A stretch of DNA of 37,281 bases. Source: Actinomycetota bacterium. GTDB lineage: Bacteria; Actinomycetota; Actinomycetes; JACCUZ01. The DNA lies in assembly GCA_030841035.1 (NCBI GenBank), contig JAVEDI010000046.1, positions 1-37,281 on the forward strand. Direction: 5' to 3'. Under the pieces are notes generated by a model. That model saw only the letters and a program-made list of their open reading frames with translations, did no database searches and was not told the origin of the DNA. The position numbers were made by a program, and so were the translations under genes. Within the stretch, counting starts at the first letter, position 1; every line of letters starts with the position of its first letter. Shown here piece after piece: positions 20,989 through 32,257 of this stretch.

Positions 20989-21025
20989 GCGGGCCGGCAC
21001 GCCCTTGCCTGCGGGCGCTGTCCAC

Positions 21026-21031
21026 TACGCT
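21026..21031 (+). promoter_or_regulatory. Putative -10 of the CD225-DUF2752 gene pair
   Basis: TACGCT lies 42 bases before the CD225 gene start, with TTGCCT 15 bases further upstream as a possible -35 at short spacing. AGGGAG (21063-21068) is the ribosome-binding site. Confidence 0.35.
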
Positions 21032-21073
21032 CTCGCGCAGTCGCCCCGTGGGGGGCGCCGACAGGGAGCCACG

Positions 21074-21493
21074 ATGAGCGACGAGGGCAGCGCGACACCC
21101 GACCCGTACCAGCCACCGAAGGACCCGCCGGAGGGGACCGGCCCGCCCTGGGAGCAACCCGCCTCCGGCCAGCCCACCTACGGGCAGCCCCCCACCGGCC
21201 AACCCCCCTATGGCCAGCCCGCCTACGGCCAGCCCACCTACGGTGGCGAGCCGCCGCCCAACTACCTCGTCTGGGCGATCCTCAGCACGATCTTCTGCTG
21301 CCTGCCGCTGGGCATCGCGTCGATCGTGTTCGCCGCGCAGGTCAACAGCAAGTGGTCCGCCGGCGACGTGGCAGGCGCACAGGACGCGTCGCGCAAGGCC
21401 AAGCAGTTCGCGATCTGGTCCGCGGTGGCGGGCGCCATCATCGTCGCGATCTACCTGGTCGTCGTGGTCGTCGCGGTCACTAGCAACAGCTGA
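21074..21493 (+). CDS. CD225/dispanin-family membrane protein
   Basis: The 139-residue product has a Pro/Gly/Gln/Tyr-rich N-terminus with imperfect repeats of the type YGQPPTGQP and YGQPAYGQP (about residues 34-58). The CD225 domain follows: [28 protein letters not shown] with its paired cysteines, a short amphipathic linker containing [14 protein letters not shown], and a second hydrophobic helix at the C-terminus. In animals this family includes the antiviral IFITM proteins; bacterial members have no established role. The DUF2752 gene follows after 22 bases, a frequent pairing. Confidence 0.88.
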
Positions 21494-22872: not shown

Positions 22873-24131
22873 GCACGCCCGACGCGAGCGGCCACTTCGG
22901 TGCCTACGGCGGACGGTTCGTCCCCGAGGCACTCATGGCCGCGCTCGACGAGCTCACGGTCGCCTTCGAGAAGGCCCGACAGGACGAGCGGTTCCAGGGG
23001 GAGCTGGCGGGGCTGCTCTCGTCGTACGCCGGGCGCCCGAGCCCGGTCACCGAGGCGAGGCGCTTCGGTGAGCACGCAGGCGGGGCGCGCGTCCTGCTCA
23101 AGCGCGAGGACCTGAACCACACCGGCTCGCACAAGATCAACAACGTGCTGGGCCAGGCGCTGCTGACCCGTGGGATGGGCAAGACGCGCGTCATCGCGGA
23201 GACCGGCGCCGGACAGCACGGCGTCGCCACAGCCACCGCCGCCGCGCTGCTCGACCTCGAGTGCGTGGTCTACATGGGTGAGCAGGACACCCGCCGGCAG
23301 GCGCTCAACGTCGCGCGGATGCGCCTGCTCGGTGCCGAGGTCGTGCCCGTCACGGCGGGCAGCCGCACCCTCAAGGATGCGATGAACGAGGCGATGCGCG
23401 ACTGGGTCACCAACGTCGACTCGACGCACTACCTCATCGGCAGCGTGGCGGGACCGCACCCGTTCCCGATGATGGTCCGCGACTTCCAGCGCATCATCGG
23501 TGACGAGGCGCGCACGCAGGTCATCGACCTGACGGGACGGCTGCCCGACGCCGTGGCGGCCTGTGTCGGCGGCGGGTCCAACGCGATGGGCATCTTCGCC
23601 GCCTTCCTCGACGATGCCGACGTGCGGCTCTACGGCTTCGAGGCGGCCGGTGACGGCGTCGAGACGGGGCGCCACGCGGCCAGCATCACCGGTGGCTCGC
23701 CGGGAGTGCTGCACGGCTCGCGGTCCTACGTGCTGCAGGACGACATGGGACAGACCATCGAGAGCCACTCCATCAGCGCCGGTCTCGACTACCCCGGTGT
23801 GGGGCCGCAGCACGCCTACCTGCACGACACCGGCCGCGCGACCTACCGGCCGATCACCGATGTGCGGGCGATGGACGCCTTCCGGCTGCTGTGCCGCACG
23901 GAGGGCATCATCCCCGCGATCGAGAGCGCGCACGCGCTGGCGGGTGCTCTCGACATCGGCAGGGAGCTGGGAGCCGACGCCACGGTGCTCGTGAACCTGT
24001 CCGGACGCGGAGACAAGGACGTCGACACGGCCGCCACCTGGTTCGGCGTCGTCTCCGACGAGGAGTTGCTCGCCGCTGCCCGGGCGAGCGTTGCCGAGCC
24101 CGCGCAGGACGCGTCGGGTGAGGGCTGGTGA
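22869..24131 (+). CDS. trpB: Tryptophan synthase beta chain
   Basis: The 420-residue PLP enzyme condenses indole with serine. [14 protein letters not shown] opens the protein. The PLP lysine is Lys89 in [10 protein letters not shown], the catalytic glutamate lies in AETGAGQHG, and the phosphate-binding loop is [10 protein letters not shown]. The protein also has LDYPGVGP and the C-terminal NLSGRGDKD. Length is slightly above the usual 400 because of a short C-terminal tail. It is translationally coupled to trpC (ATGA overlap) and to trpA (GTGA overlap), consistent with the alpha2-beta2 complex. Confidence 0.97.
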
Positions 24132-24937
24132 GCAGGCTCGGCGAGGTGCTGGCCGCAGCCAAGGCCGACGGTCGCGCCGCCTTGATCGGCTACCTGCCTG
24201 CGGGCTACCCGTCGGTCGAGCACGGTGCCGCCGCGATGACGGCGATGGTGGAGGCCGGCGTCGACATCGTGGAGGTCGGGCTGCCCTACTCCGACCCGTT
24301 GATGGACGGTCCGACGATCCAGACGGCCGTCGAGCGGTCCCTGGCCCGGCGCACCACGACGGCGGACGTGCTCGACACGGTCCGCGAGGTGGCCAAGACC
24401 GGCGCCGCAACGCTGGTGATGAGCTACTGGAACCCGATCAACCGCTTCGGGGTACGCCGCTTCGCCGACGAGATGGTCGCAGCCGGCGGCGCCGGTGTCA
24501 TCACGCCGGACCTGACGCCCGACGAGGCGGGGGAGTGGCTCGAGGCCACCGACGCCACCGGGCTCGACCGTATCTTCCTCGTCGCGCCGTCCTCGACCGA
24601 TGTGCGGCTGCGCTACACCGCCCAGCACTGCTCCGGATTCGTCTACGCCGCCTCGACGATGGGTGTCACCGGCAGCCGCACGTCGGTCGGTAGTGCTGCA
24701 CAGGCACTGGTCGCCCGGACCCGCGCCGTGACCGACCTGCCGATCTGTGTCGGTCTGGGGGTGTCCGACGCGGACCAGGCGGCCCAGGTCGCGTCGTTCG
24801 CCGACGGGGTGATCGTGGGGTCGGCCTTCGTGCGTCGGCTGCTGGACGCGCCGTCGCCCGAGGCCGGGCGGGACGCCGTCGCCGCACTGGCGGACGAGCT
24901 GGCCGCCGGCGTACGCCGCGGCGCACGCCACGTCTGA
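24128..24937 (+). CDS. trpA: Tryptophan synthase alpha chain
   Basis: The 269-residue (beta-alpha)8 barrel cleaves indole-3-glycerol phosphate to indole, which is channelled to TrpB. Landmarks are [10 protein letters not shown], the catalytic Glu49 and Asp60 in [55 protein letters not shown] and [14 protein letters not shown] 24128 overlaps the trpB stop. It is the last gene of the trp cluster, and three hairpins follow. Confidence 0.97.
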
Positions 24938-24960
24938 CGCACCCTGACCCGACAAGGCAG

Positions 24961-24998
24961 CTCGCCGGCGCCTGACCGAGAGGTCAGACGCCGGCGAG
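24961..24998. terminator. Strong hairpin after trpA (bidirectional)
   Basis: CTCGCCGGCG (24961-24970) pairs with 24989-24998 and, across one C-A mismatch, CTGACC (24972-24977) pairs with GGTCAG (24982-24987) around a GAGA tetraloop. It begins 23 bases after the trpA stop. No T run follows, as is common for high-GC actinobacterial terminators. Confidence 0.75.
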
Positions 24999-25060
24999 CC
25001 GTTGCCCTCGGGCCGGAGGGGGCGGCCTGGGGATCGGGGTGGTCGGCTTGCTCGGACCGG

Positions 25061-25102
25061 GCACGGTGCCTCGCTCTGGGGGGGTAGAGCAAGGCACCGT
25101 GC
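25061..25102. terminator. Second strong hairpin between convergent genes
   Basis: GCACGGTGCCT (25061-25071) pairs with 25092-25102; after one mismatch GCTCT (25073-25077) pairs with AGAGC (25086-25090). The loop is seven G and one T. It lies between trpA and the converging secreted-protein gene. Confidence 0.75.
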
Positions 25103-25110
25103 TGGTCGGG

Positions 25111-25156
25111 GACCGGGAAGTAGCGCCGCTCCGCTCGCTTCCGCTACTTCCCGGTC
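25111..25156. terminator. 15-base perfect inverted repeat overlapping the end of the secreted-protein gene
   Basis: GACCGGGAAGTAGCG (25111-25125) is the exact reverse complement of 25142-25156, with a 16-base spacer. The right arm contains the last three codons and the TAG stop of the minus-strand gene, so the mRNA would fold across its own stop codon. Confidence 0.75.
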
Positions 25157-28100
25157 CCTGTCAGTCCAGCGCTCACCGTCGTCGGGAGGCTGGTGGTGTC
25201 ACCGGCGACCACGAGTGACGCGCTGTATCCGATTGCAGCCGTGGGCCTCAAGGAGACCGTGATGCTGCAGGTCTTGCCCGGCGCCAGCGTCGTGGCCACG
25301 CAGCCCGCGCCGTTGTTCACGACCGCGAAGCTGGCCGCCTGCGCCCCGGTGATCGACGCCGACCCGACCCGGAATGCGATCGTGCCGGAGTTCTTCACCG
25401 TCACCGACTGGGTCTTGGTCGTGTTGCGGTTGACCGTGCCGAAGGTGACCGGGCTCGGTGAGATGGTGAAGGTCGAGCCCGCTCCGGTGCCGCTGAGCGA
25501 CACCTGGGTGGGTGTCCCGGTCGCGTTGTGGGCGATGGAGAGGCTCGCCGTGCGCGCGCCGATGGCCTTCGGCGCGAACTTCACCGTGATGAGGCAGGTC
25601 CCGGCCGGAGCGATCGAGCCGCACGGCGCGCTGGTCACCGAGAAGTCGCCCGCCGCGGCACCTGCGATCGTCACGGCGCCGATGTTCAGCGCAGCCGTAC
25701 CGGTGTTCTTCACCGTGGTCGACAGACTCGGCGTGGCCGGTGCCGTGACGGTCCCGAAGGACAGCACACCGGGGGTCACCGAGATGGCCGGTGCCGTGGC
25801 CGCGTCGCCGATACCGGTGAGCTTCACCGTCAGGACGGGCCCGGTTGCCGGCGTGATCCGCAGCGTCGCGGTCTTCGCGCCCGCGGAGTGCGGTGCGAAG
25901 CTGACGCTGACGGCACACGTCGTGTCGGTGGCCTTCGTGGCGGAGGAGCAGCTGTCCGTGCCGATCGCGAACTCCCCTGCGTTCGCCCCGGTCAGGGCCA
26001 CGCCGGAGATCGTGGTCGGCGAGGTCGCCACGTTGGTCACCGTGATCGTCTGCGCGTCACCGGTCTGGCCGACCTGCGCGTGTCCGAGGTCCACCGTGTT
26101 CTTGTCGCTCACGAGCGGGCCGGCGAGCTTGCCCGAGACCGTGAACCTGTCCGTGGTGGACTCGATGTTGCCCGCCAGGTCGGTGATCGCGGCGTAGTTG
26201 ACCGGACCGTCGGCACCCGCCGGCACGTACGTCCCACCGACGATCTTGTGGAGGGCGGTGGGGCTGCCCAGGTAGCCCACCGGTGCGGCCGGCGCGGCGG
26301 CCGGGTCCCATCGGGGGAAGCTCTGGGCGATGCGACTGCCGAGGGCGGCGGAGAAGTCGCACGTGGCGGGTGCGACCGGGGCGCAGCCGACGTCCTGGGT
26401 GCCCTGGTTGCGGGCGAGTCCACCGACGGCGTTCGTCGTGAACGGCACGGGGCCGTACGGCGTCACGAAGATGTAGTCGGCGTTCGGGCACAGCCCCCTG
26501 GTGACCGAGATGCGCAACCGACCGAAGGTCGTCTGCTCCCCGGCCGCCGGGGCGCCGTTCGCGAACGAGCCTTCCAGCGCCACGCGCAGCTGTGCTGTGC
26601 CCGGCGTGGTCTGCCCGCCGCAGCCCGTTGTGGGCAGGGCGTCCGAGTCCGCGATCGAGTAGAAGAACTCGGCCGGGAAGTTGGTCGGGAACACGGTCGG
26701 GCTTGCCGGGTTGAAGCCGGCGTCACCCAGGACGATGCAGTTGACGTCAGCCGGGTCCAGGCACTGTCCGACGCGCACGCCGTTGCTGTCCTGGTACCAG
26801 TGCGGGAAGCCGTTGTCCCCGTCGTGGGTCGCCGACACTGCCGGGTCCGCGTTGGAGCCGACACCCGTCAGCGCGACGGTGTGCGTGCCGCCCGGCGCGT
26901 TGTCCTGCACCACGAGGTCCGCGGTGAGCGAGCCGGCCGAGGCTGGTGCGAACACCACGTCGACCTTGCAGACCTCACCGGAGCCCAGTGACGTGCCGCT
27001 GCAGCTGTCGTGCAGGATGCTGAAGGAGGACGCATTGGCGCCGCCCAGGCTCACTGCTCCTACGTCGAGCGCCGCGTTGCCGCCCGCGTTCGAGACCGAG
27101 ATGGTCTGCGGGGCGCTGACCTTGCCCACGTGCAGCGGCACGAACGTCGCGCTGCGTGGAGTGAAGCTGATGGCCGGCGTGGCGCCGACCGCCCCACCGA
27201 TCCCGTGCAGCGCCACGAGAACCGGGTCGTTGAGACCGGTGTGGTGCACGGTCAACGTGGCGTCACGGTCGCCCACCGCCGTCGGGCTGAAGGACACCTG
27301 CGCGGTGCAGCTGTCGCCGACGCCCAGGGTCAGGCCCGGGCAGGTGCCCGGCGCGACGTTGAAGTCGCCGGCGTCCACGCCGGAGATGGCCAACGTGTTG
27401 ACGGTCAGTGGCTCGATGCCGGTGTTGGTGAAGGTCACCGGCCGGTTGCCCGACGTCGAGCTCACGGCCGTGGAGGGCAGCTCCAGCGACTTCGTGGAGG
27501 GCTCCAGCGGCCCGCGGAGCTTGCCCATCACGGTGAACTGGTTCGTCTCGCCGACCGTGTCGCCGTTGGCCTGGGTGATCTTGAAGAAGTTCGCCGGGTG
27601 CACGCCGTCCGGCTTGTACGGAGCTCCGACGACGCTGTGCAGCGTTGTCGCGTCACCGATGTAGCCGGCCGGCGCCGCAGGAGCGACGGCGGGGTCCCAG
27701 CGGAGGAAGCCGCCGAAGACGCGGCTGGAGAGCGCCTCGCTGAAGTCGCACACGTCCGGCGCGACGGGCGCGCAGCCCACGTCGTCGGTGGCACGTGCCC
27801 GGGCGAGGCCGCCGCTGGCGTTGGTCGTGAAGGTGCTCTCGCCGTAGGGGTGGGTGAAGGTGTACGTCGTGTTCGGGCAGAGGCCGCCGGTCACCGCGAA
27901 ACGGATGCGACCGAAGGTCATCTGGTCACCAGGGATGGGACCGGCGCCGGTGAACGCCCCCTCGACGGCGCTGCGCATGAACGCCTTGCCAGGAGCGGAG
28001 CCGTTGCAGCCGGGCGTCGTGATGATGTCCGAGTCAGCGACGGTGTAGAAGAACTCCTCCGGGAAGTTGGTCGGGAAGACAAGCGGCTGCGCCGGGTTGA

Positions 28101-29790
28101 AGAAGTCGTCGGGCAGCACGACGCAGTTGGGGTCCTGCGGGTCGATGCACTGGTCGAGCTTGACGCCGTTCTCGTCCCGGTACCAGCCGGGGAACCCGTC
28201 GCTCGTGCCAGCCGCATCGGGCGCCACGGCGGCGAAGCCGCCGGTGCCGGTGCCGGTCACGTTCACGAAGTGCGGGCTGCCCTGGTCGTTGGACTCGACG
28301 ACCAGGCGGGTCGCGTGGTCTCCGGCCACCGAGGGCACGAAGATGACGTCCACCTGGCAGGCAGCGCCCGGGTCGACGAACTTGCCCGAGCAGGTGTCGC
28401 GGGTGACCAGGTAGTGGCTCGAGCCGGAGCCGTTGGAGCCGTCGAGGAACACCTTGTTGATCTTCAGCGGCGCCTGGCCGGTGTTGCCGATGGTCAGGGT
28501 CTTGGGTGCGCTGGTCGTGCGCACCCGCGTGGCCGGGAAGGCCAGGGCTGCCGGCGGCGCGGGGGTGAACTCGATGGAGGGCGCGTCGCCCACGTTGATC
28601 CCCCGGCCCGTCACGTCGACGCGCAAGGGCGAGCGCACGCCCCCCGTGGAGCTCACCTCGAGGGCTGCGGTGACCCGACCGGCGACGGCCGGGGTGTAGG
28701 TCAGGTCGACCGTGCAGGTCGCGTCGCGGCCGAGCACGAGGGCCGGCGTACATCCGTTGGTGGCACCGGGTACCGCGGAGAACGCGGCGGCGGCGTCGCC
28801 GGTCATCGTCAGGGCGCCGATGGTGACCGGTGCCTTGTCCAGGTTGGTGACCGTGAGGGTCTTCGCGGGGCTGGTGGTGAGCACGGTCTGGCCACCGAAG
28901 TCGAACGGCGACGGGTCGCCGGACAGCGAGCCGGCGGTCTTGCCGGCCACCGTGAACTGGTCCGTGGTCAGTCCCAGGTCGTGGTTGCCGCTGTCGAGGA
29001 TCGCGAAGGCGTTGCCTGCGGTGCCGCCGACGATGGTGTGAGGGGTGACCGCGTCACCGAGGTAGCCCTGCGGAGCCGCGGGCGCGACTGCGGGGTTCCA
29101 CCGCAGGAAGCCGTCGGCGGCCGTGCCGAAGACGCGGCTGGAACCCGCCTGTGCGAAGTTGCAGCGCGACGGTGCGACCGGGACGCAGCCGATGTCCTCG
29201 GTGCCCACGTTGGCGGGGATGGCGCCCGCGGCGTTCGTCGTGAGCGACGCGGTGCCGAACGGGTGGCGGAAGTGGTAGGTCGTGTTGGGGCAGAGACCGC
29301 TGGTGACCTTGACGCGGATCCGGCCGAAGACCATCTGGTCGCCGGCTGCGGGGGCGCCGTTCACGAACGCTCCCTCCAGGGCCAGCCGGACGGTTGCCTT
29401 GCCGGGCGCGGTGCCCAGGCAGCCGGCCGTCTGGACGATGTCCGAGTCGGCGAGCGCGTAGAAGAACTCGTCCGGGTAGTTGGTCGGGAACACCGTGGGC
29501 CGGGTCGGGTCGAACGTGTCGCTGGCCACGACCACACAGTTGGGGTCGTTGGGGTCGATGCACTGCTCGACGCGGTTTCCGGCGGAGTCCTCGTACCAGG
29601 ACGGGAAGCCGCCCACGGGATCGACCGTGGCGGCCGGGCGGCCCGCCGCGGCGGCCGGGGACGCGGCGGCCAGGACCCCGACCACCAGCATCTGCAGCAC
29701 GAGCGCGAGAACCGTACAGAGCGTGGAGCCGGACCGGATGACCGGCCGGCCTGAACCCGGCAACAGCCGGGAACGGGTGGACGTACTCAT
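25144..29790 (-). CDS. Large secreted repeat protein: three six-Cys modules with seven Ig-like (choice-of-anchor D / HYDIN-like) domains
   Basis: The 1548-residue product starts at ATG 29790 behind AGGAGG; the frame is open to 29850 but the signal peptide begins at this ATG. Residues 1-49 are a signal peptide (hydrophobic core 24-43, AAAAG near 46-50). Three copies of a module of about 225 residues follow at 60-284, 531-757 and 992-1221. Each starts GFPxWYxD, has QC-DPxDxNC, FPTNxPxEFFY-xxADSD, FGRxRxxVTxGLCPN, GC-PVAP-x-C(N/D)F, RWxPA-APAAPxGYxG, and ends FTVxGK, with six conserved cysteines. Ig-like domains with one cysteine pair each fill 285-530 (two), 758-991 (two) and 1222-1548 (three). 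There is no LPXTG motif or C-terminal helix, so it is probably released. I know of no named family for the module; adhesive or matrix roles are guesses. Confidence 0.88.
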   Translation of the reverse strand: MSTSTRSRLLPGSGRPVIRSGSTLCTVLALVLQMLVVGVLAAASPAAAAGRPAATVDPVGGFPSWYEDSAGNRVEQCIDPNDPNCVVVASDTFDPTRPTVFPTNYPDEFFYALADSDIVQTAGCLGTAPGKATVRLALEGAFVNGAPAAGDQMVFGRIRVKVTSGLCPNTTYHFRHPFGTASLTTNAAGAIPANVGTEDIGCVPVAPSRCNFAQAGSSRVFGTAADGFLRWNPAVAPAAPQGYLGDAVTPHTIVGGTAGNAFAILDSGNHDLGLTTDQFTVAGKTAGSLSGDPSPFDFGGQTVLTTSPAKTLTVTNLDKAPVTIGALTMTGDAAAAFSAVPGATNGCTPALVLGRDATCTVDLTYTPAVAGRVTAALEVSSTGGVRSPLRVDVTGRGINVGDAPSIEFTPAPPAALAFPATRVRTTSAPKTLTIGNTGQAPLKINKVFLDGSNGSGSSHYLVTRDTCSGKFVDPGAACQVDVIFVPSVAGDHATRLVVESNDQGSPHFVNVTGTGTGGFAAVAPDAAGTSDGFPGWYRDENGVKLDQCIDPQDPNCVVLPDDFFNPAQPLVFPTNFPEEFFYTVADSDIITTPGCNGSAPGKAFMRSAVEGAFTGAGPIPGDQMTFGRIRFAVTGGLCPNTTYTFTHPYGESTFTTNASGGLARARATDDVGCAPVAPDVCDFSEALSSRVFGGFLRWDPAVAPAAPAGYIGDATTLHSVVGAPYKPDGVHPANFFKITQANGDTVGETNQFTVMGKLRGPLEPSTKSLELPSTAVSSTSGNRPVTFTNTGIEPLTVNTLAISGVDAGDFNVAPGTCPGLTLGVGDSCTAQVSFSPTAVGDRDATLTVHHTGLNDPVLVALHGIGGAVGATPAISFTPRSATFVPLHVGKVSAPQTISVSNAGGNAALDVGAVSLGGANASSFSILHDSCSGTSLGSGEVCKVDVVFAPASAGSLTADLVVQDNAPGGTHTVALTGVGSNADPAVSATHDGDNGFPHWYQDSNGVRVGQCLDPADVNCIVLGDAGFNPASPTVFPTNFPAEFFYSIADSDALPTTGCGGQTTPGTAQLRVALEGSFANGAPAAGEQTTFGRLRISVTRGLCPNADYIFVTPYGPVPFTTNAVGGLARNQGTQDVGCAPVAPATCDFSAALGSRIAQSFPRWDPAAAPAAPVGYLGSPTALHKIVGGTYVPAGADGPVNYAAITDLAGNIESTTDRFTVSGKLAGPLVSDKNTVDLGHAQVGQTGDAQTITVTNVATSPTTISGVALTGANAGEFAIGTDSCSSATKATDTTCAVSVSFAPHSAGAKTATLRITPATGPVLTVKLTGIGDAATAPAISVTPGVLSFGTVTAPATPSLSTTVKNTGTAALNIGAVTIAGAAAGDFSVTSAPCGSIAPAGTCLITVKFAPKAIGARTASLSIAHNATGTPTQVSLSGTGAGSTFTISPSPVTFGTVNRNTTKTQSVTVKNSGTIAFRVGSASITGAQAASFAVVNNGAGCVATTLAPGKTCSITVSLRPTAAIGYSASLVVAGDTTSLPTTVSAGLTGTGK
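26128..29613 (-). repeat. Three-fold repeated coding unit (module copies at 29613-28939, 28200-27520, 26817-26128)
   Basis: The three module copies are similar over their whole length at protein level, by eye more than half of aligned positions being identical, and each is followed by a pair of Ig-like domains. The start-to-start distance is 471 then 461 residues, so the protein looks like triplication of a unit of roughly 1.4 kb, with an extra terminal Ig-like domain. Confidence 0.85.
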
Positions 29791-30097
29791 GGCAGACCTC
29801 CTGCGAGCGGGTGTACTGCCTCGACGGTCCGAGGAAGGCGCAGCTGTCACCAGCCCCCACCGGGTGAGCGGGGGCGCCTAAAATTGGGGGGGGTCGGGGG
29901 TGGTGCTACGACCACCCTCCCCTGGTCGCATCCCGTTGCTCGGTGAGCCCGTCCCGGCGACCCCGCGCACGGATCGTGCGCCTTCGGTCACGGCGTGTTC
30001 GAGTCGCCGACCTCACGCGGGCGGGGAGACCTGGCCGAGGGAAATCCGTCAGGTTGCGCCGACATAGTCGGGCAGACGGATCGAGAGGACGTTCTCC
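29791..30097. promoter_or_regulatory. Divergent intergenic region between secreted protein and two-component genes
   Basis: This 307-base stretch has no plausible gene. Next to the secreted-protein gene it holds the AGGAGG ribosome-binding site (29797-29803). Further right are an imperfect GCCCCC/GGGGGC hairpin (29853-29875), the only A/T-rich hexamer TAAAAT (29879-29884), a G8-TC-G5 tract (29886-29900) and a GGGTGGT/ACCACCC stem (29898-29917). Near the response regulator are the palindrome CCGAC-ATA-GTCGG (30059-30071), which includes CATAGT as a possible -10, and GAGAGGA (30083-30089) as its ribosome-binding site. Exact promoters are not assignable by eye. Confidence 0.5.
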
Positions 30098-30856
30098 ATG
30101 CCATACGCCCGCGATGGGGGCACCAGTGCGCCGCAGCGTGCGCAGGAGTCGCAGCCGAGCACGGTCCGGCTGCTCGTCGTCGACGACCACCGGACCATCG
30201 CCGACCTGTTGGCCGTGGCCCTGCGGCACGAGACCGACATCGAGTTCGTCGGCCACGCCGCCACCGCGCGCCAGGGCATCGAGCTGGCGGCGGCGCTGCG
30301 GCCGGACGTGGTGCTGATGGACTTCGCGCTGCCTGACCTCGACGGCCTGCAAGCCACCGCAGCGATCGTCGCCGAGCAGCCCGACACCCGCGTCATCCTG
30401 CTGACCGCCTCGTCCGAGCCGCGCCTGATCGCCCACGCCGCGGCCGTCGGCGCGTGCGCCTTCGTGCCCAAGAGCGCCGGCCTGGACGTGCTCCTGGACG
30501 CGGTGCGCGGTGCCCGGCAGGGTGCCATGGTCGTCGACCCCGGCCTGCTGGGCGCTCTCGCGGACCTGGCCGAGGGCACGTTGCGCCGGTCCGAGGAGTC
30601 GGCGACGGCCTCCGTCTCCCTGACCACCCGCGAGCGGGAGGTCCTCGGCATGCTCGCTGCGGGCATCGACGTGGGCGGGGTGTCCCGTCGCCTGGGGATC
30701 AGCCAGCACACCTGCCGCGGCTACGTGAAGAGCGTGCTGGCCAAGCTCGGCTGCCACTCGCAGCTGCAGGCGGTGGTCGTCGCGACCCGGCTGGGCCTGC
30801 TGGACCTGCCGCCCGATCAGCAGCCTGTCGCTCGCGCCGTCGGCTGGGGCGCCTGA
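30098..30856 (+). CDS. NarL/FixJ-family response regulator
   Basis: The 252-residue product has an N-terminal receiver domain (about residues 27-145) with VVDDHRT acidic residues, phosphoacceptor Asp75 in VLMDFALPDLDG, the switch segment LLTASSE and Lys in FVPKSAG. A linker leads to a LuxR-type helix-turn-helix (about 175-240: LTTREREVLGMLAAG, ISQHTCRGYVKSVLAKL). The GVSRRLGISQHTCRGYVKSV recognition helices are intact, so it should bind DNA when phosphorylated. The histidine kinase follows after three bases and is the obvious partner. The gene is divergent from the large secreted-protein gene, a candidate target. Confidence 0.93.
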   Translation: MPYARDGGTSAPQRAQESQPSTVRLLVVDDHRTIADLLAVALRHETDIEFVGHAATARQGIELAAALRPDVVLMDFALPDLDGLQATAAIVAEQPDTRVILLTASSEPRLIAHAAAVGACAFVPKSAGLDVLLDAVRGARQGAMVVDPGLLGALADLAEGTLRRSEESATASVSLTTREREVLGMLAAGIDVGGVSRRLGISQHTCRGYVKSVLAKLGCHSQLQAVVVATRLGLLDLPPDQQPVARAVGWGA

Positions 30857-30859
30857 CCC

Positions 30860-32257
30860 GTGACACGGCCCCGCTCGGCGGTCCGCCGGGCCCTCCTGCT
30901 GCACCTGGTGACGAGCCTGGTGGTCCTCGTGGTCGCCGGCCTCGGCGCCGTGGTGTGCGTGCAGCGGGTCGTGGCCGGCGAGGTGGAGCGCAACGCCGTC
31001 GCGGAGAGCCGGCTGGTCGCCCACGAGGTGTTCGCGCCGCTGGTGACCGACGGCGTTCGCGCCGGTGACCCGCGCGCACTGGCCGTGCTCGACCGGGCCG
31101 TGCGCTCTCGCACCCACGGCAGCCTGTTGCTGCGCGTGAAGATCTGGGATCAGCAGGGACGGGTGCTCTACTCCGACGCGTCCGCATTGATCGGCAAGCG
31201 GTTCCCGCTCGAGGACGACGACCTCGCGGTGCTGCGCACCCAGGGGTCCGAGTCGAACGTGTCCGACGTCAGTCGGCCCGAGAACGTGTTCGAGCGCGGC
31301 CTCGCCCCGGTGATCGAGGTGTACGTCGGTGTGCGTGACGCAGCCGACCGGCCCGCCGTCGTCGAGATCTACTTCTCGGCCGCCAACATGCACCGCCAGG
31401 AGGTCGAGCTCAGCACCCGCCTCACGCTGGTCTCGTTGCTGGCACTCGCCTTCCTCGCGCTGCTGCTGGTGCCGCTCTCGCTGCGACTGGCCCGCCGCGT
31501 CGAGCGCTACGAGAGGGAACGGCTCGCGATGCTGCGCCTGGCGGTCGACGCCTCCGCCGACGAGCGCCGCCGGCTCGCACGCGAGCTGCACGACGGTGTG
31601 GTGCAGGACCTGTCGGGCACCCGCTACGTGCTGGCATCGGTCGAGAAGCAGCTCGCGGACAGCGACCTGCCCGAGCTGAGGGGAACCGTGCGCATCGCGC
31701 TCGACGTGATCCTCGTGCAGATCGAGGCGCTGCGGAGCCTGACGTCGACGCTCTTCTCGCCGAACCCGGCCGGCACGGACGTGACCGAGGTGCTCGCCGG
31801 ACTGGGCCGTGACGCCGAGGCGCGCGGCCTGAAGGTTCGCCTGGACATCGGTCCCCTTCCGCCGCTGCCGGCGACCGTGGCCGAGTCGCTCACCCAGGTG
31901 GCCCGGGAGGCACTTCGCAACGTCGTGTCGCATGCCGGTGCAAGTGGCGCGACCGTCTCGCTCACCGCGAGCGGCGACGAGGTCACGCTGGTGATCGCGG
32001 ACGACGGCTGCGGGTTCCATCCCGAACGCGCCCACACCGTGCCGCTCGGTCACCTCGGCCTGCAGCTGCTGCAGGCCTCGGCCCAGCGGGCCCGGGGTTC
32101 GCTGACGATCGACTCGCAGATCGGCCGTGGCACCCAGGTCCGGCTGGTCATCCCCGTGCGCCGTGGCGAGCCGGACCTGGCCGACCTGTGGCCCGGTGCC
32201 GAACCGTCGCCGGCCGAGGAGCTCACGGCCGCCGCCGCGGGGTCCCGCTCCGGCTGA
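30860..32257 (+). CDS. Membrane sensor histidine kinase (HisKA_3/NarX type)
   Basis: The 465-residue product has a first membrane helix at about residues 12-35, an extracytoplasmic sensor region of about 150 residues (containing KIWDQQGRVLYSD and GKRFPL, like a small Cache-type domain), and a second helix near 189-210. The dimerisation/phosphotransfer motif is RRRLARELHDGVVQDLSG with phosphorylatable His244. The HATPase domain follows, with an N box around REALRNVVSHAGA and the G1 box DDGCGFHPE near 380. This architecture pairs with NarL-type regulators. GTG 30860 begins three bases after the regulator stop, so the two form an operon. The signal is unknown; extracellular sensing is likely. 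Confidence 0.93.
   Translation: MTRPRSAVRRALLLHLVTSLVVLVVAGLGAVVCVQRVVAGEVERNAVAESRLVAHEVFAPLVTDGVRAGDPRALAVLDRAVRSRTHGSLLLRVKIWDQQGRVLYSDASALIGKRFPLEDDDLAVLRTQGSESNVSDVSRPENVFERGLAPVIEVYVGVRDAADRPAVVEIYFSAANMHRQEVELSTRLTLVSLLALAFLALLLVPLSLRLARRVERYERERLAMLRLAVDASADERRRLARELHDGVVQDLSGTRYVLASVEKQLADSDLPELRGTVRIALDVILVQIEALRSLTSTLFSPNPAGTDVTEVLAGLGRDAEARGLKVRLDIGPLPPLPATVAESLTQVAREALRNVVSHAGASGATVSLTASGDEVTLVIADDGCGFHPERAHTVPLGHLGLQLLQASAQRARGSLTIDSQIGRGTQVRLVIPVRRGEPDLADLWPGAEPSPAEELTAAAAGSRSG

Follow-up and report, generated by a model that had tools for sequence, protein, structure and literature searches.

The window, the whole stretch of 37,281 nucleotides analyzed here, contains on its minus strand a gene (25144..29790) for an apparently secreted protein of 1548 residues that carries three copies of one module. 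The translation opens with MSTSTRS, and third-codon GC is 0.92. The sequence AGGAGG lies six bases upstream of the ATG at 29790 (29797-29802, minus strand), and this start is therefore preferred over an upstream in-frame GTG that would give a product of 1568 residues. The gene is located between trpA (24128-24937) and a regulator/kinase pair on the opposite strand (30098-32257); lgt and a glutamate synthase gene come after the pair. The first gene of the pair (30098..30856, plus strand) encodes a NarL/LuxR-type response regulator (Response_reg E 1e-22, GerE E 1e-13) and is divergent from the three-module gene. The second (30860..32257, plus strand) encodes a sensor histidine kinase that combines an N-terminal sensor region with HisKA_3 and HATPase_c domains. 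The start-site positions place both divergent starts around a common intergenic region (29791..30097). A divergent-promoter motif was considered for this region and rejected because neither a sigma-70-like site nor a convincing repeat was found in it. Two near-perfect inverted repeats with stems of 18 and 17 bp (24960-24999 and 25061-25102) separate trpA from the 3' end of the three-module gene; they are probably terminators of these convergent genes and were not listed by a terminator scan that requires a T-run. The trp gene group also contains a CD225/dispanin-type small membrane protein (21005-21493).

The protein is organized as a signal peptide and three modules, with two, two, and three Ig domains following modules 1, 2, and 3, respectively (all features on the minus strand). 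The putative signal peptide (residues 1-49; 29644..29790) ends in SPAAAA and is followed by GRPA at the likely cleavage site; hydropathy peaks at 2.47 in the 19-residue window starting at residue 25. Module 1 spans residues 61-284 (28939..29610) and contains cysteines 77, 85, 124, 167, 202, and 210. Module 2 spans residues 532-757 (27520..28197) with cysteines 548, 556, 595, 638, 673, and 681, and module 3 spans residues 994-1221 (26128..26811) with cysteines 1010, 1018, 1057, 1101, 1136, and 1144. The modules are separated by two choice-of-anchor-D/HYDIN Ig domains (residues 285-531; 28198..28938; cysteine pairs 347/359 and 467/478), whose boundaries are deduced from the module ends and the cysteines, and by two choice-of-anchor-D Ig domains (residues 758-993; 26812..27519; cysteine pairs 817/828 and 930/941). 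Three more complete the C terminus (residues 1222-1548; 25147..26127; cysteine pairs 1281/1292, 1390/1399, and 1497/1508). The number of Ig domains assigned to each gap follows the cysteine pairs. Seven stretches of spacer match the choice-of-anchor D profile NF012200 at 354.9 bits (the cut-off being 45), which bears out the interleaved choice-of-anchor D/HYDIN Ig domains described in the first-pass annotation. The seven spacers are thus members of the choice-of-anchor D/HYDIN-VesB-CFA65 Ig family (NF012200, PF22544); the matches are confined to them and leave the GFPxWYxD modules uncovered. Of the 33 cysteines, the modules contain 18 and the seven Ig domains 14 (a pair per domain), with the remaining 1 located in the signal peptide, so that every cysteine of the mature protein would be able to pair.

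The three modules are 224-228 residues long, begin with GFPxWY, end with FTVxGK, and carry six cysteines in matching positions. They are 57-59% identical to one another, and modules 2 and 3 match module 1 with E 4e-82 and 8e-73, values that exclude a chance repeat and establish the threefold repetition that had been read from the 1548-residue sequence. Neither an LPXTG-like motif nor a C-terminal membrane segment was found in the protein, and there was no convincing case of a sortase-type anchor (LPXTG-type motif plus C-terminal membrane segment) among 37 relatives. Together with the hydropathy peak, these data agree with the earlier reading of a signal peptide and no anchor: the protein looks exported and released.

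The module was also said to lack a named domain, and the search for a strong Pfam match to it returned none. The modules of this protein have no Pfam match, and scanning 25 and 45 family members singly gave only isolated matches at chance level. No module exceeds a curated NCBIfam cut-off (best E 0.018, for a single member among 45), and the PDB sequences contain no match. Judged by sequence, the family is uncatalogued in these libraries. Its 59 full-length members come from Actinomycetota, Myxococcota, and Alphaproteobacteria. In the same genome, a one-module query retrieved seven modules, carried by four genes. Profile searches recovered the module from 6 of 394 class genomes and 10 of 396 phylum genomes (both counts include the genome of the window) and from 5 of 189 genomes sampled around Minicystis (phylum Myxococcota). 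Since so few of the sampled genomes contain it, the family is rare and patchy in distribution. Named records with the module are a Myxococcales MAG, Minicystis rosea, and an Acidimicrobiaceae MAG, and it is present on plasmids of Arthrobacter, Skermanella, and Indioceanicola. A viral or phage origin was rejected: phages and viral contigs gave no module match, and a search of predicted viral structures gave no confident one.

The alignment of the 59 modules refines the earlier description of a six-cysteine module. The description holds for all three modules of this protein, but all six cysteines are present in only 17 of the 59 modules, and they were rejected as a family signature. The six-cysteine form is that of the three-module type and of a Myxococcales relative. 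The invariant residues are D8, P117, G119, G195, and F219, and C17 and C25 are near-universal (58/59). The cysteine patterns are CC--CC (23 modules), CCCCCC (17), CC---- (10), CCCC-- (5), and others (4). Cysteines are gained or lost as the pairs 17-25, 64-107, and 142-150, of which only 17-25 is near-universal; this paired occurrence suggests that the same pairs form the disulfides of the module.

Modules 1 and 2 pair in the tree with modules 1 and 2 of a three-module protein from genome G288 (100% bootstrap; 72% and 64% identity), and module 3 groups with module 3 of the same protein and with the first modules of Acidimicrobiia. These groupings show that the three-module array has been maintained as a unit. 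In two Acidimicrobiia genomes (G396 and G397; loci L105 and L106) the three-module gene has expanded locally to two or more tandem copies behind a kinase/regulator pair. Where the N terminus of a relative is complete, the signal peptide is followed by the first module. The partner domains are exclusively of the spacer or binding kind: PKD, Big_5, Big_13, fn3, CHB_HEX_C_1, FG-GAP, and HYDIN Ig. The module is the sole constant part, placed after the signal peptide, while the spacers change freely, and for this reason it probably fills a recognition or assembly role.

Structure prediction and fold searches revealed no known fold identical to that of the module. AlphaFold2 modeled module 1 from 25 alignment rows with a pLDDT of 93.6 and a single-module relative of 40% identity from 45 rows with a pLDDT of 96.1. 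The two models, built from different lead sequences, are all-beta with identical strand order and form one beta-barrel domain. Foldseek returned no PDB match below E 0.05 for either model. In VIA-align, Cu/Zn superoxide dismutase (SOD) barrels ranked first for both, with a Z of 6.8 over ~103 aligned residues and rmsd of 3.4 and 3.8, and for the second model SODs occupied the first ten rows (Z 5.5-6.8), with the rest at or below 4.5 except for one non-SOD at 5.5. A Z below 8 may reflect only a common arrangement and does not establish homology or the eight-stranded Greek-key barrel of the SODs. Compared with Sod_Cu (PF00080), the module has an extra N-terminal segment of ~50 residues that is barely covered by the structural matches and carries the near-universal cysteine pair.

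The structural ranking raises the idea that the module might be a Cu/Zn SOD-type enzyme or metal protein in its own right, and the segment GLCPNTTYHFRHPFG aligns by eye with the copper-ligand segment of SOD1. We consider this very improbable. There is no histidine among the columns conserved in at least 85% of the 59 modules, hmmscan found no Sod_Cu match to the modules, hhalign detected no profile similarity to 16 actinobacterial SODs, and the structural scores (Foldseek E 0.05 or worse, Z below 8) fall within the range of common arrangements. SOD membership was rejected on the lack of sequence or profile similarity and of conserved metal-ligand histidines, and the module is treated as SOD-like by predicted barrel topology, not as a SOD. 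The CHRD domain (PF07452), which we take to be another possible barrel relative, is likewise a small secreted beta domain; hhalign against 22 actinobacterial CHRD sequences showed no profile similarity, and CHRD membership was rejected. The genome also encodes a CHRD-domain protein (G000:C80:97-423).

The gene neighborhoods point to a connection with extracellular multicopper oxidases. In the genome of the window (contig C84) and in genomes G009, G237, G547, and G823, a single-module gene has a CueO/bilirubin-oxidase/CotA-type multicopper oxidase at a distance of no more than 4 kb. These are 5 of 33 module genes where 0.32 were expected, ~15 times expectation with P ~2e-5 in a test that was chosen after the first cases had been seen and with lineages that are partly dependent (the C84 and G237 modules are sisters). 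The nearest solved structures to the oxidase beside the C84 module gene are bilirubin oxidase (2xll, E 3e-94) and CotA laccase (1gsk, E 2e-62), which are kin of the neighboring enzyme, not of the module. A related oxidase is present in genome G001 of the same genus, and no module was found near it. The Arthrobacter plasmid has oxidase genes on both sides of its module gene, the Skermanella plasmid has an oxidase and an SCO gene upstream, and in G576 an MnxG-type giant oxidase adjoins the module gene. One stretch of G237 holds an oxidase, a signal peptidase I, the module gene, and a kinase/regulator. Signal peptidase I genes accompany oxidase and module genes at L042 5548 (G009) and L043 5862 (G237) and might encode a dedicated export protease. 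The oxidase set was corrected by reading the sequences and by separate profiles: an initial cluster had been over-merged through shared spacer domains, and L092_9, L093_6, L096_2, L096_6, and L041_2 were removed. The C-terminal domain of ~95 residues found in single-module proteins has a counterpart at the C terminus of the Arthrobacter oxidase L065_8 (E 2e-14). The plasmid oxidase and the neighboring module protein that share it are encoded at L065 5965-7935 and 8610-10697, and the domain perhaps serves in targeting or attachment.

These data bear on the reading of the protein as a general released adhesin or matrix protein whose module binds a surface or polysaccharide, with the oxidases marking only shared islands of secreted surface chemistry. 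The purely noncatalytic partner domains fit this reading, as do the anchorless, repeated, multidomain architecture of the protein and the 28 of 33 module genes that have no oxidase within 4 kb. It does not account well for an excess of nearby oxidases that recurs across phyla, for the C-terminal domain common to module proteins and an oxidase, or for the adjacency of related kinases to MnxG-like oxidases in this genome. We hold the adhesin reading to be only slightly less likely than a role as oxidase partner.

The genome has four kinases of this family, one of them beside the three-module gene. Two sister kinase/regulator pairs, on C44 and C94, adjoin giant MnxG-like multicopper oxidases of 1696 (L111 11350-16437) and 1992 residues (L110 979-6954); the sister kinase on C13 adjoins neither an MnxG-like oxidase nor a module gene. 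A third MnxG-like oxidase is on C8 (L118 14816-19501). The three oxidases match the MnxG profile NF041487 with 112 to 393 bits. They are MnxG relatives and not equivalogs, and because their scores are far short of the 3100 bits set as the equivalog cut-off, Mn(II) as their substrate is a guess. The G396 and G397 giant oxidases match another oxidase profile and were rejected as MnxG-type. In the phylum, MnxG-like oxidases occur in 6 of 396 genomes and share 4 of these with the modules, a co-occurrence confounded by family f58.

The regulator/kinase pair is a constant neighbor of the three-module genes. A NarL-type pair adjoins those of G288, G396, and G397 as well as a one-module gene of G237, and among three-module loci that share this architecture and whose flanks are known, 4 of 4 have it as a neighbor, in three gene orders. 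The three-module gene of G001 was left out of this count because its architecture differs and the contig breaks off beside it, with one flank missing. By rough arithmetic the chance of kinase adjacency in three independent three-module cases is ~3e-7. G288 and G237 each have one full-length kinase homologue, and both adjoin the module gene; at other sites in G396 and G397, kinase homologues have no oxidase next to them.

This linkage, which persists in differing orientations and includes the sole full-length homologue in two genomes, would also be expected if the three-module protein were the extracellular part of the sensory pathway, capturing a ligand to present it to the histidine kinase or to titrate it away. 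We judge that arrangement improbable. A target gene under control of the pair accounts for the same linkage, the sister kinases adjoin oxidases and not module proteins, and most single-module genes have no kinase neighbor.

We tentatively prefer a reading in which the protein, made under regulation and released, serves extracellular multicopper-oxidase chemistry, possibly the oxidation of Mn(II), as a partner or matrix protein. Most likely it would act as a released scaffold or matrix partner in such oxidation outside the cell. The protein would be exported and released with its module cysteines paired 17-25, 64-107, and 142-150, giving three disulfide-stapled beta-barrel domains spaced by HYDIN-type Ig domains. 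The adjacent NarL-type pair would sense an extracellular signal and control the gene. The released protein would cooperate with extracellular multicopper oxidases as a scaffold, a matrix, or a substrate- or metal-presenting partner, and the oxidase would perform the chemistry on Mn(II), another metal, or phenolic substrates. The association of the protein with oxidases is deduced from gene neighborhoods, and the chief weaknesses of the partner model are that no oxidase gene lies beside this gene or beside most module genes and that the proximity test is post hoc. The first-pass suggestion of an adhesin, matrix, or ligand-binding protein is retained in its matrix sense and narrowed by the neighborhood to an oxidase partner under a two-component switch. 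A broader proposal, that the GFPxWYxD family works with extracellular multicopper oxidases in several phyla and that an expanded kinase/regulator family in this genome controls both the MnxG-like oxidases and the three-module protein, is unlikely to hold in full.

In type, this is a familiar protein: secreted, with multiple Ig domains and a recurrent module. The interest of this one lies in a domain family with a confidently predicted fold that has members in three or more phyla, no entry in Pfam or NCBIfam, and gene neighbors that suggest a testable role as an extracellular multicopper-oxidase partner. If the role is correct, bacterial oxidation of metals or phenols beyond the Pseudomonas and Bacillus models would gain a regulator and the noncatalytic parts that have been missing, and the module profile could be used to search for such oxidation systems. 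The literature searched contained neither the oxidase/regulator association of the module nor a description of a regulated extracellular oxidation and matrix system, and no link between choice-of-anchor D and multicopper oxidases was found in it.

The module neighborhoods can be compared with the Mn(II)-oxidation type of Pseudomonas putida GB-1. In that organism an SCO-family gene is part of the mnxG operon, and control of the Mn oxidases falls to the two-component system MnxS1/MnxS2/MnxR (PMC8218464). The operon genes named in the available portion of that account do not include the module protein (PMC8218464). The regulators beside the module genes are NarL/LuxR-type, unlike those of the P. 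putida system, and the MnxG-like proteins described here fall below the MnxG equivalog cut-off, unlike the P. putida type. The same set of an oxidase, an SCO gene, and a two-component system nevertheless recurs around module genes, and the P. putida GB-1 system may be viewed as a parallel to these neighborhoods rather than as a claim of homology.
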